Origin: Komagataeibacter nataicola
GTDB taxonomy: Bacteria; Pseudomonadota; Alphaproteobacteria; Acetobacterales; Acetobacteraceae
Length of the DNA stretch: 35,928 nucleotides
NCBI RefSeq assembly: GCF_003207795.1
Contig: NZ_NIRT01000029.1
Span: 1 to 35,928 of the forward strand
Direction of reading: 5' to 3'
This document shows positions 28,914 through 31,289 of the stretch, one piece after another. A program made the position numbers and the translations under genes. Under the pieces are notes generated by a model. It was not told the DNA's origin and did no database searches. It saw only the letters and a program-made list of their open reading frames with translations. Every line of letters begins with the position of its first letter. The stretch's first letter is position 1.

Positions 28914-29780
28914 ATGACCACGCCACAGGAGGCCCCCTCGCGGGCGGCCACGGCCACCCTGCGCGCCTATCGGGCGGACTGGGTGCATTTTACGCAATGG
29001 TGCGCGGAACAGGCCATCGCCCCCATTCCCGTAACGCCTGAAGGGGTTGCAGCCTATCTGCGCAGTCTGGGCACGTTTGCCCCGGCCACCATCCGCCGCC
29101 GCCTGGCCGCCATTGGCAAGATGCACCGCTTTAACGGGCTGGCGTGGGATGTCACGCATCCGCTTATCCGCGCGGCACTGGCTGAGATGCTCGAACAGGC
29201 CAGCCGCCCCGCGCTGCCGCCTGCCGTGGTCACTCCCGCCATGCTGGGCGCCATGTCGGCACACTGTACCGATGGAGTGCGCGGCCTGCGCGACCGCTGC
29301 CTGCTGCTGTTCGGCTTCGCAGGCGCGCTGCGGCGTTCGGAGCTGGTGGGGCTGCAGGTGGAAGATGTGCGCCTCACCCCCGAGGCGGTGATGCTGACGG
29401 TGCGCGACGGCCATGAGGCCCCCACCATCGCGCTGCCCGTGGCGCAGGAGCGCGAGATATGCCCGGCGGCGGCCTTTACCGCATGGCAGCAGGTGGCGCA
29501 CCGGCAGACCGGGCCGGTGTTTCGCGCCATCTCCAAGGGCGAACGCGTGGGCGGCCGCGCGCTGACCCCCTATGCCGTGACCCGCATCCTGCAACGCCGG
29601 GCGCTGATGGCCGAGGTGCCCCCCGCCACGGTGGCCCGGCTCAGCGCCCATGCGCTGCGGGCGGGCTTTATTGTCGAGGCCCTGCGCCACGGCATGGACC
29701 CTGCGGCTCTGGGCCAGCGCACCCGGTACCGTGATCCGCGCGCCCTGCGCCCTTATGCGGACCTGCTGGCCCATGACTGA
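28914..29780 (+). CDS. Tyrosine recombinase/phage-integrase-like protein with altered active site
   Basis: 288 residues. The N-terminal SAM-like DNA-binding domain (~10-95) has TLRAYRADWVHFTQWCAEQ and APATIRRRLAAIGKMHR. The C-terminal catalytic domain (~105-288) has Arg140 (FAGALRRSELVGLQ), His246 and Arg249 (SAHALRAGF), and a probable nucleophile Tyr281. The position normally His/Trp is Tyr272 by hand alignment, and the usual catalytic lysine is not evident. Its base composition matches the neighbours, and no att sites or cargo are seen. It overlaps the next gene by eight bases, so it belongs to a three-gene operon rather than acting as a classical integrase. Whether it cuts DNA is open. Confidence 0.85.
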   Translation: MTTPQEAPSRAATATLRAYRADWVHFTQWCAEQAIAPIPVTPEGVAAYLRSLGTFAPATIRRRLAAIGKMHRFNGLAWDVTHPLIRAALAEMLEQASRPALPPAVVTPAMLGAMSAHCTDGVRGLRDRCLLLFGFAGALRRSELVGLQVEDVRLTPEAVMLTVRDGHEAPTIALPVAQEREICPAAAFTAWQQVAHRQTGPVFRAISKGERVGGRALTPYAVTRILQRRALMAEVPPATVARLSAHALRAGFIVEALRHGMDPAALGQRTRYRDPRALRPYADLLAHD

Positions 29781-30477
29781 AACCCTGCGCCTGCCCTGGG
29801 CCGACCTGCCCCCCACGACCCCGCGTGAGGGGGAAGGTTCATCCGCCCCGACCCGCCGGCCGCCCGCACGCAGGGGGCGGCGGCCACTTTCCGCCTGGCC
29901 CGCGCCTGCGGGGCCGCTGCCCTGGCAGGGGTGGCACCTGCTGGTGCATGGGCCTGACGCGGGCATGGCGGCCTTCGCCACCGAAGCTGCCGGGCCGGGA
30001 CTGATTCCGTGGCCGTTCGATGCGGCGCAGGTGGAAGAAGACATGTTCGCGCTGGCCATCGGGGCCAATACGCCCGGATCGGGCCGGGGCGGCCTGTCGG
30101 TGGAAGGGTGCCGCATCCTCGCCCGCCAGTTCCGTGCGGCGGCGGAAGCGCGTCATGCCCGTCTCGCCCTGCGGTCTGATGGCGCCTGCCCGCTGGATTT
30201 CAATCGTCTGGTGCCCGTGCCGGATCGCATCCTGCACCTTGGCGCGACCCACCCCGATGCCCGCGCCTGGCTGCTGGCCAACTGGGGCGTGGTGGAAGCT
30301 CCCGCCCAGGTGGCGCCACTGCCGGGGCGTAAGGCGGGCAGGCGGCTGCCGCGCGGGCATCGGGCCGTGGTGTATGGCTTCTTTACCCGTGGCGGCACGC
30401 CAGCGCCCGTAGTGCGAAGGATGGAGGAGCATTACCCCCTGCTGACCTTCCGCCTGACCGGGCGGCCCCTGACATGA
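29773..30477 (+). CDS. Uncharacterised protein with Api92-like C-terminal domain
   Basis: 234 residues. The N-terminal ~45 residues are Pro/Arg-rich and probably disordered. The middle (HLLVHGPDAGMAAFATEAAG) is unassigned. The C-terminal half, LDFNRLVPVPDRILHLGA, AWLLANWGVVEAP, FFTRGGTPAPVVRRMEEHYP and LLTFRLTG, follows the pattern of Api92-like/DUF1281 ferredoxin-like domains (FN-x-IIPMP, NWGTKW, TAWSPP-PV, FP-x-xF) known from phages and plasmids. The normally conserved Trp after NWG is missing. It overlaps the recombinase gene by eight bases and the kleisin gene by four. Function unknown. Confidence 0.72.
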   Translation: MTETLRLPWADLPPTTPREGEGSSAPTRRPPARRGRRPLSAWPAPAGPLPWQGWHLLVHGPDAGMAAFATEAAGPGLIPWPFDAAQVEEDMFALAIGANTPGSGRGGLSVEGCRILARQFRAAAEARHARLALRSDGACPLDFNRLVPVPDRILHLGATHPDARAWLLANWGVVEAPAQVAPLPGRKAGRRLPRGHRAVVYGFFTRGGTPAPVVRRMEEHYPLLTFRLTGRPLT

Positions 30478-31289
30478 CCGGCCAGCCCGACCTGTTCGAC
30501 CCCGCGCGGCCCGGCCTTGAGCCGATTATCGTGCTGGAGGCCTATCAGGGTGACCTGTCACATCTGGTGCAACTGGCCCACGCGCGTGAAATCGACCTGA
30601 CCCGCCTTGATATCGTAGCCCTGATCGACCAGCTGGCCGAGGCCGCGCGGGCGCATGCCGCCCTGCCGCTGGGCATGAAGGCGCAGTGGGTGGTCATGGC
30701 GTCAGGCCTGCTGCTGCTGCGCTCGCGGCTGCTGCTGCCAGCCGATGATCCGCGCCAGCAGCAGGCAGAGCAGGAAGCCCACGACCTGCGCGCGCGCCTG
30801 ATCGCGGCCGAGCAGGCAGGGCACCTGGCGGGGTGGCTGGCCGCACGCGCGCAACTCGGGCGTGATGTCCATGCCTTTGGTGGCGCACAGCCTGTCCGGC
30901 GCGACGAATCGGCTGAATGGGAAGTGGACCGGATCGAATTCCTGTGGGGTTGCCTTGCGGTGTTTGATGGCAACTGGGGCGCCATGCCCGAGCAGGCGCC
31001 CTTCTATGCCCCGGTGCAGCTTGACCTGTTCTCGGTCGAGGAGGCGCGGGCACGGGTGCGTGCGTGCCTGGCGCATGCCCGCAAACCCGTGCCGCTGGAC
31101 CGCATGCTGCCCGATTCCGTGCGGCATGGGGCGGAAGGTGCGCGGCGCACGGGGCTGCGGCGCTCGGCATGGAGCAGCACGTTCACCGCCTGCCTCGAAA
31201 TGGTCAAGCAGGGCGAGGCGCTGGCCTACCAGCCCGGCCCCGATACGCTGCCCCGCTTTGGCAAGGTGGAGCGCGACGGCGCGGCCTGA
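30474..31289 (+). CDS. Divergent ScpA-family kleisin
   Basis: 271 residues. The N-terminal SMC-neck-binding helices are recognisable: VLEAYQGDLSHLVQLAHARE, IDLTRLDIVALIDQLAEA, and VVMASGLLLLRSRLLLP, matching the ScpA pattern (GPLDLLLHL, IDI, MAA-x-LL-x-KS-x-LLP). The C-terminal winged-helix, SAWSSTFTACLEMVKQGEA, also fits. ScpA bridges SMC heads in chromosome condensation. Unlike a housekeeping scpA it has no adjacent scpB, the GPLDLLL core is altered to QGDLSHLV, and it ends a recombinase/Api92-like operon. It may be an additional, specialised kleisin. It overlaps the preceding gene by four bases (ATGA). Confidence 0.8.
   Translation: MTGQPDLFDPARPGLEPIIVLEAYQGDLSHLVQLAHAREIDLTRLDIVALIDQLAEAARAHAALPLGMKAQWVVMASGLLLLRSRLLLPADDPRQQQAEQEAHDLRARLIAAEQAGHLAGWLAARAQLGRDVHAFGGAQPVRRDESAEWEVDRIEFLWGCLAVFDGNWGAMPEQAPFYAPVQLDLFSVEEARARVRACLAHARKPVPLDRMLPDSVRHGAEGARRTGLRRSAWSSTFTACLEMVKQGEALAYQPGPDTLPRFGKVERDGAA

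Follow-up and report, generated by a model that had tools for sequence, protein, structure and literature searches.

A Xer-like recombinase, an Api92-fold protein and an ScpA-type kleisin encoded in one conserved operon on chromosomes and plasmids of the Acetobacteraceae

The DNA analysed here is a stretch of 35,928 nucleotides from Komagataeibacter nataicola (hereafter, the window, by which we mean the whole stretch). It contains three consecutive genes, which we refer to as the trio:

28914..29780, + strand: gene 1, Xer-like tyrosine recombinase of 288 aa (assigned by family, profile and alignment matches)
29773..30477, + strand: gene 2 (g2), Api92/YubB-fold (ferredoxin-like) protein of 234 aa (assigned by fold)
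30474..31289, + strand: gene 3, ScpA-type kleisin paralogue of 271 aa (assigned by family, profile and Foldseek matches)

As an initial annotation of the sequence had stated and the coordinates bear out, the three genes overlap by 8 bases (genes 1 and 2) and 4 bases (genes 2 and 3), and the trio is a co-translated operon. A family scan of the two nearest genes recognised an adenine deaminase upstream and TonB downstream, and no phage genes were seen among them; further out stand genes that we take, from their sequences, to be thiC upstream and exbB downstream.

The first gene was correctly described as an integrase-fold protein. In the family search, Phage_integrase scored over its cut-off and a SAM-like domain just below, and the protein resembles XerC/XerD and matches the XerD structure 1a0p, with the N-terminal SAM-like and catalytic domains expected of the fold. 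By eye in the alignment, and with catalytic roles assigned as in the family, the window recombinase retains ArgI (GALRRSEL), HxxR (HALR) and the Tyr (RPY). A Tyr stands in place of the third catalytic His (TRYRD for TRHRD), and no hairpin Lys was found. This copy does not carry the complete catalytic set (Arg, Lys, HxxR, His/Trp, Tyr), and we do not claim that it is an active XerC/D. The third His is Tyr throughout the Komagataeibacter rows of the alignment and is retained in those of Novacetimonas.

For the second gene, the proposed likeness to Api92/DUF1281 held for the fold and failed for the sequence family. The protein has the Api92 fold, the window g2 had no match to a Pfam family in the family search, and no credible DUF1281-type match was found across 32 g2 members; g2 thus folds like Api92 but lies outside that sequence family. 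Comparisons with the PDB gave no match by Foldseek at E<=1e-3 and none by profile search of the PDB sequences at E<=1, and a DUF1281 search of 13 genomes gave no match, but as its control did not match anywhere either, that search is uninformative. The ferredoxin-like proteins Api92, DUF1281 and YubB share the fold of g2, which differs from them in having no significant Pfam sequence match, and we know of no pairing of these proteins with recombinases or kleisins. A phage origin of g2 was also considered, and of 12 pattern matches in viral contigs none was confirmed.

Kleisins are the clamp subunits of the chromosome-folding SMC machines, and ScpA contacts SMC through its N domain (at the neck) and its C-terminal winged helix (at the cap). 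The identification of the third gene as an ScpA-type kleisin is upheld by homology to ScpA over the whole length (HHalign of 66 trio against 18 canonical kleisins: 100%, E 7e-70, 232 columns). The kleisin profile matches the solved ScpA N-domain structures 4i98, 3w6j and 3zgx, and the best Foldseek matches of the kleisin model, none of which reached E<=1e-3, were the ScpA C-terminal winged helices 4i99 and 5h66 (E 0.01-0.03, prob 1.00), which were solved with SMC heads. Judging from its sequence, the window kleisin, in which both the N domain and the winged helix were recognised, retains its two SMC-contacting ends and is predicted to bind SMC and ScpB. Its genome (3.67 Mb, with the trio on contig C34) encodes three kleisins, namely the window copy, a canonical scpA beside scpB on C14, and a copy on C10 that stands behind a fused recombinase-g2 gene. 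The same genome has one ScpB match and one SMC match, and thus any working extra kleisin must share them. The canonical pair on C14 means that the window kleisin is not the only ScpA of its genome, and a ScpB match was found in all 31 Acetobacteraceae genomes with g2; the exception to a separate scpA is G017, a MAG in which the sole kleisin match is that of the trio.

The trio extends well beyond this strain. Of 150 Acetobacteraceae genomes, 31 carry g2, with up to five matches per genome, and these 31 fall into 22 of the 102 genera covered; 108 relatives were confirmed in the named collection, of which 80 were kept. Among the loci with enough flank, a recombinase match lies upstream of g2 in 74 of 77, a kleisin lies downstream in 66 of 76, and both are present in 63 of 73. 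The initial annotation's view of the recombinase, the Api92-like protein and the kleisin as one system is therefore supported, in that the trio is a real conserved system across the Acetobacteraceae, present on plasmids and chromosomes and neither confined to one strain nor made of genes that are rarely adjacent elsewhere. Ten of the 76 loci have no kleisin downstream, five of them with a site of the kind described below, and thus the recombinase and g2 can exist without the kleisin. Pairwise distances among 67 trios, calculated with shared descent ignored, correlate with r values of 0.93 (g2 and gene 3), 0.81 (gene 1 and g2) and 0.75 (genes 1 and 3). Outside the family g2 is rare, occurring in at least 2 of 385 class genomes (that of the window and G485) in a search that scored at most 8 candidates per genome, and a few g2-bearing MAGs of the named collection are labelled otherwise, for example as Rhodocyclaceae, Nevskia or Caulobacteraceae.

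Many copies are found on plasmids. With the window g2 as the query, 32 PLSDB records from five genera were retrieved, and with a Gluconobacter g2, 49 records from seven genera, all of them Acetobacteraceae according to PLSDB. Newer NCBI ranks place Roseomonas and its kin in the Roseomonadaceae. Six consecutive R. mucosa accessions (CP099473-CP099478, the last from strain TT14) carry at least one g2 each, with two in CP099473, which would suit a replicon-specific function. In two of the plasmid records opened, the order is integrase, hypothetical protein and ScpA; in the others, the kleisin is annotated as hypothetical in one and, in CP099478, is unannotated yet matches. The trio can also be joined by further Scp genes. 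For instance, the Gluconobacter plasmid pGS1191_1 has scpB, integrase, g2, scpA and repA with no intervening gene, an Acetobacter aceti plasmid has scpB, two IS630, integrase, g2 and scpA, and a contig of genome G108 (C43) has scpB, recombinase, g2 and scpA. G017 has smc, scpB and the start of a recombinase on each of two contigs, with one smc cut, and a third contig, separate from these smc-scpB-xer pieces, opens with g2 and scpA. Thus, the observation that no scpB lies beside the kleisin is right for the window but not in general, as some plasmids have scpB directly upstream, and this clustering of scpB and smc with the trio links the kleisin, at the level of gene content, to SMC biology. 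Neighbourhoods of xerD and scpA occur in streptococci and actinobacteria as well. No SMC match was found in G108, the genome of the four-gene contig, and for the SMC head of G017 the end branch is 0.71 long, where the median is 0.13; as three other rows are also long, this is only suggestive of a paralogue. Like the ScpA of the SMC-ScpA-ScpB complex (bacterial condensin), the trio kleisin is ScpA-like over its full length, and its cluster can include scpB and, in one genome, smc, but it is of a plasmid type and comes in addition to the canonical kleisin, and the trio loci examined usually have no ScpB or SMC of their own.

The dif site consists of 11-bp arms around a centre of 6-7 bp, with a TAA...TTA core. 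By the start of the recombinase gene, many trio loci have palindromes of approximately the form ACACGCGATAA-N6/7-TTATCGCGTGT, for example ACACGCGATAA-gccctc-TTATCGCGTGT. Under a rule of 11-bp arms with at most 2 mismatches, a spacer of 4-8 and a TAA...TTA core, which was shaped on part of the loci later tested, 32 of 81 loci (75 named and 6 from PLSDB) have such a palindrome between -600 and +150 of the recombinase start, compared with a mean of 0.05 loci and a maximum of 1 in 60 rounds of dinucleotide shuffling. The density in that interval is 0.53/kb versus 0.014/kb elsewhere in the loci, where 11 palindromes were found in 805 kb, 10 of them being the same motif located 0.8-1.5 kb upstream. 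With a wider rule (-1700 to +250, one asymmetric half allowed), a site was recognised in 34 of 46 loci that have a full-length recombinase and lie outside the chromosomal clade to which the window belongs. In total, 21 of the 55 full-length-recombinase loci with enough flank were without a recognised site, and 9 of these 21 belong to the chromosomal clade.

A second arrangement is found where the operon recombinase has lost its catalytic part. After the removal of fragmentary genes, the tree comprises 80 operon recombinases, of which 64 extend as far as the Tyr and 16 are without the C-terminal catalytic part (HxxR, His and Tyr), a loss that requires two changes on the tree, with the deep position of a 14-member dead-recombinase group uncertain owing to missing columns. 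By eye, ArgI is altered in this group as well. The dead recombinase is fused to g2 in the second copies of Komagataeibacter and in that of Novacetimonas, and several dead-recombinase loci encode a second recombinase, transcribed divergently from the operon, that retains Arg, Lys, His and Tyr, with Lys in place of the Arg of HxxR in some. Between the two recombinases of such loci lies a half-asymmetric 28-bp site, ACTTCCGACAA-gataac-TTATCGGAAGT or similar. Among the dead-recombinase loci listed, a symmetric site at no more than 3 mismatches was found in a single one (L160), and also in L133, where the recombinase is in pieces; relaxing the half-site to CGACAA, a rule made after the data were seen, recovered the site in several other dead-recombinase loci. 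From these sequences we infer a pair of a dead and a live recombinase, in which the dead partner would be retained for binding. The operon persists in lineages in which its recombinase is dead, and recombination is thus not its whole purpose.

As a check separate from the loci on which the rule was shaped, the same site accompanies a different set of genes in other Alphaproteobacteria. Twelve plasmid records of Hyphomicrobiales and Rhodobacterales were found through scpB and picked by hand from the listing, and in 11 of them scpB is associated with a gene for DUF1403; 6 of these 11 stretches show rep genes. All 11 of these loci have the palindrome (at most 2 mismatches) just before or at the DUF1403 start, and 9 encode an integrase that matches the gene 1 profile (E 6e-64 to 6e-70). 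The locus of the twelfth record is disrupted by transposition genes, and neither DUF1403 nor the site was found in it; a Bosea plasmid has scpB with no annotated DUF1403 or integrase nearby. The recombinase family, the palindrome and an Scp subunit are thus common to these plasmids and the trio, but DUF1403 replaces g2 and scpA. DUF1403 does not appear to be a hidden kleisin, as HHalign against canonical and trio kleisins gave a probability of <1%; no relatives were confirmed in viral contigs, only one of 240 class genomes gave a match in a family search, and no mention of it was found in the open-licence PMC literature searched. The palindrome accompanies the recombinase in both gene sets, which differ in other respects, and the simplest view is therefore of a candidate recombination site for this recombinase. 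The recombinase resembles XerC/XerD, and the layout and TAA...TTA core of the site resemble dif, but in contrast to XerC/XerD-dif, the trio has a single recombinase with a palindromic site or a dead and live pair with a half-asymmetric one, and its recombinase gene is translated together with, or lies close to, genes for a kleisin and an Api92-fold protein.

On balance, we give about even chances to the reading that the trio of the window is a vertically kept chromosomal copy of a plasmid module for Xer/dif-type resolution and segregation with its own SMC-kleisin complex. Of the functions suggested initially, segregation or dimer resolution is favoured by the dif-like sites, the plasmid location and the neighbouring repA. 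For such a module we infer protein-protein contacts, coupling to SMC and recombination as follows. On plasmids, the recombinase would bind the 28-29 bp dif-like site that lies close to its gene; copies with an intact active site would also resolve plasmid multimers there. The kleisin may form a plasmid-dedicated SMC complex, drawing on the ScpB and SMC of the host or on a ScpB, and in rare cases an SMC, encoded by the plasmid. We propose g2 as the adaptor between the two, that is, this Api92/YubB-like protein would link the recombinase to the kleisin, leading SMC to be loaded, paused or unloaded at the site, and the action of SMC there could pair or separate sister plasmids and steer recombination. 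In some lineages, the operon recombinase would have become a dead DNA-binding subunit, with recombination performed by the second, divergent recombinase at the half-asymmetric site.

Such a mechanism agrees with earlier reports. The unloading of SMC by XerD at the terminus in B. subtilis is attributed to Karaboja et al. (2021) in PMC8357415, PMC8669397, PMC12322038, PMC9733580 and PMC13342612, and the last of these describes Hi-C of pSymB as suggesting SMC unloading at dif. There too, a Xer recombinase is reported to act on SMC at a defined place, but the trio differs in having the recombinase and a kleisin in one operon and in occurring on plasmids. The initial impression that this was not a known system therefore stands for the trio, of which we found no description in the open-licence PMC literature searched, but a link between Xer and SMC was, by these accounts, already known.

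The window copy itself has a distinct history. All 19 genomes examined from the genus, its own included, carry a copy of its type (at least 72% identity), and 17 of these 19 also have distant copies at 35-39%. The named loci that share the window's neighbours are from Komagataeibacter, with g2 identities of 72-93%, and the chromosomal copy has the same neighbours in every one of the 13 loci compared, among them that of Novacetimonas (two members of this set, L066 and L097, are probably the same contig). The dN/dS ratios are 0.10-0.33 for all three genes in nine comparisons each. By these comparisons of sequence, the copy is vertically inherited and under purifying selection. A search of the window that allowed up to 3 mismatches found no dif-like site, nor was one found in the nine named chromosomal loci (L090-L098) under the wider rule, and the genome's single match to the core pattern is on C10, next to the second copy. 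Given the missing local site, the altered active site and the vertical inheritance, the window copy looks domesticated in the chromosome and is probably no longer a normal resolvase; the initial suggestion of domestication thus gains from the shared synteny of Komagataeibacter and Novacetimonas and from the presence in all 19 genomes. What probably remains for it to do is to regulate SMC site-specifically, either on the chromosome or against plasmids in the same cell. A related possibility, which concerns this copy alone and is compatible with a plasmid origin of the module, is that it regulates SMC site-specifically at a distant chromosomal site and no longer has to do with plasmids. Vertical inheritance under purifying selection, a third His altered in Komagataeibacter and kept in Novacetimonas, and the lack of a local site would all fit, but no chromosomal site was found and the sole pattern match is on C10, although that pattern need not be the one used by the window recombinase. 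We regard this as a serious possibility, but one against which we lean.

A rival to the reading of the trio as a plasmid resolution and segregation module with its own SMC-kleisin complex is that no working SMC complex is built. The recombinase could carry out ordinary Xer-type dimer resolution while the kleisin and the Api92-like protein act as a decoy that competes for the SMC or ScpB of the host, guarding the plasmid or weakening its rivals. In favour of this, SMC gives one match per genome in the 126 genomes of 150 in which it was found, and ScpB usually one, versus as many as 10 for the kleisin in a single genome, and the kleisin is missing from 10 of 76 loci. However, scpB accompanies the trio on several plasmids and contigs, and smc in G017, which suits a working complex better, and both SMC-contacting ends of the kleisin are kept; we therefore consider a decoy unlikely. 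More doubtful still is the idea that the recombinase serves a small mobile element as its integrase, with the other two genes as passengers. Its matches to phage integrase families and the up to five g2 matches in one genome could be read in this way, but the same chromosomal neighbours in Komagataeibacter and Novacetimonas, the presence in 19 of 19 genomes, the persistence of the operon where the recombinase is dead and the lack of any confirmed g2 relative in viral contigs make it improbable. Finally, defence against circular DNA had also been raised, and a system in the manner of Wadjet is highly improbable. In its favour, a kleisin is present, and a TIR gene or a type I-C CRISPR locus can be found close to copies of the trio, but many carriers are themselves plasmids, no PADLOC match was obtained for the three window proteins, the family search found no nuclease among the trio, and the locus, flanked by adenine deaminase and TonB, shows neither the SMC nor the nuclease subunit that Wadjet/Jet loci carry, and we see no positive support for this function. 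The SMC of G017 matches 32 PADLOC families, with mad3 as the best at E 2.7e-51, which may be expected of any SMC-type ATPase.

Beyond the single operon, we tentatively suggest, while thinking it somewhat more probable that the generalisation goes too far, that the trio belongs to an unnamed class of site-specific recombination-segregation systems in which a recombinase has SMC clamp subunits of its own. In these, a plasmid kleisin would direct SMC translocation through an Api92-fold adaptor, and this translocation would play for plasmids the part that FtsK plays at dif; the class would take two forms on alphaproteobacterial plasmids (xer-yubB-scpA with or without scpB, and xer-DUF1403-scpB) and would have been domesticated in Komagataeibacter with loss of the site. 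The module bears on how Alphaproteobacteria disentangle large sets of plasmids and keep them monomeric, and on whether SMC complexes serve plasmids through dedicated subunits. It also offers a compact genetic test case, with a single recombinase, a site of 28-29 bp, a proposed adaptor and a kleisin, in which the natural dead-recombinase variants separate recombination from the control of SMC, a distinction that bears on the proposed unloading of SMC by Xer proteins. The carriage of scp genes by plasmids may be a common theme, given that scpB-like matches were found in 745 and 743 PLSDB records, counts that include canonical scpB on chromids.

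On Hyphomicrobiales and Rhodobacterales plasmids in PLSDB (L199-L202 and L204-L210), we found the order dif-like palindrome, DUF1403, scpB, with DUF1403 standing in place of gene 2 and scpA. A divergent integrase of the gene 1 family is carried by 9 of these 11 plasmids, and rep genes are in view in six. An scpB-like match occurs in 743-745 PLSDB records, a figure that includes canonical scpB on chromids.

TniB/TniQ or Mu-type transposition genes flank the putative recombination site on three plasmids (L206, L209, and L211), a placement that fits Tn402/Tn5053-like transposons, which are res-site hunters. 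A serine recombinase lies among them in L206 and L209, and a TniQ gene is also present in L201.

The following features belong to loci with relatives of the trio:

L183 (genome G017): SMC (1156 aa), then directly scpB, then the start of the trio recombinase
L184 (G017): SMC (cut), then directly scpB, then the start of the trio recombinase
L086, 6653-7990 (Komagataeibacter plasmid): fused recombinase-gene 2 gene, annotated "transposase"
L186, 7293-10614 (G485, different family): recombinase-gene 2 pair overlapping an upstream 572-aa ATPase-like gene
L083, 9761-11251 (Acetobacter vaccinii plasmid): TIR-domain gene adjoining a trio copy
L085, 10637-16507 (Acidisoma plasmid): type I-C CRISPR locus adjoining a trio copy

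The SMC head of L183 has a long branch, and no kleisin match was found at the G485 pair. "Transposase" is likewise the label on the feature under gene 2 in other Komagataeibacter plasmid matches (H170-H172, H181, H182, H187, and H191), which hides the trio system. The window kleisin (30474-31289) further matches phrog_30628 (function unknown; E 1e-6), and thus, judging from sequence, phages may carry kleisins of this type.
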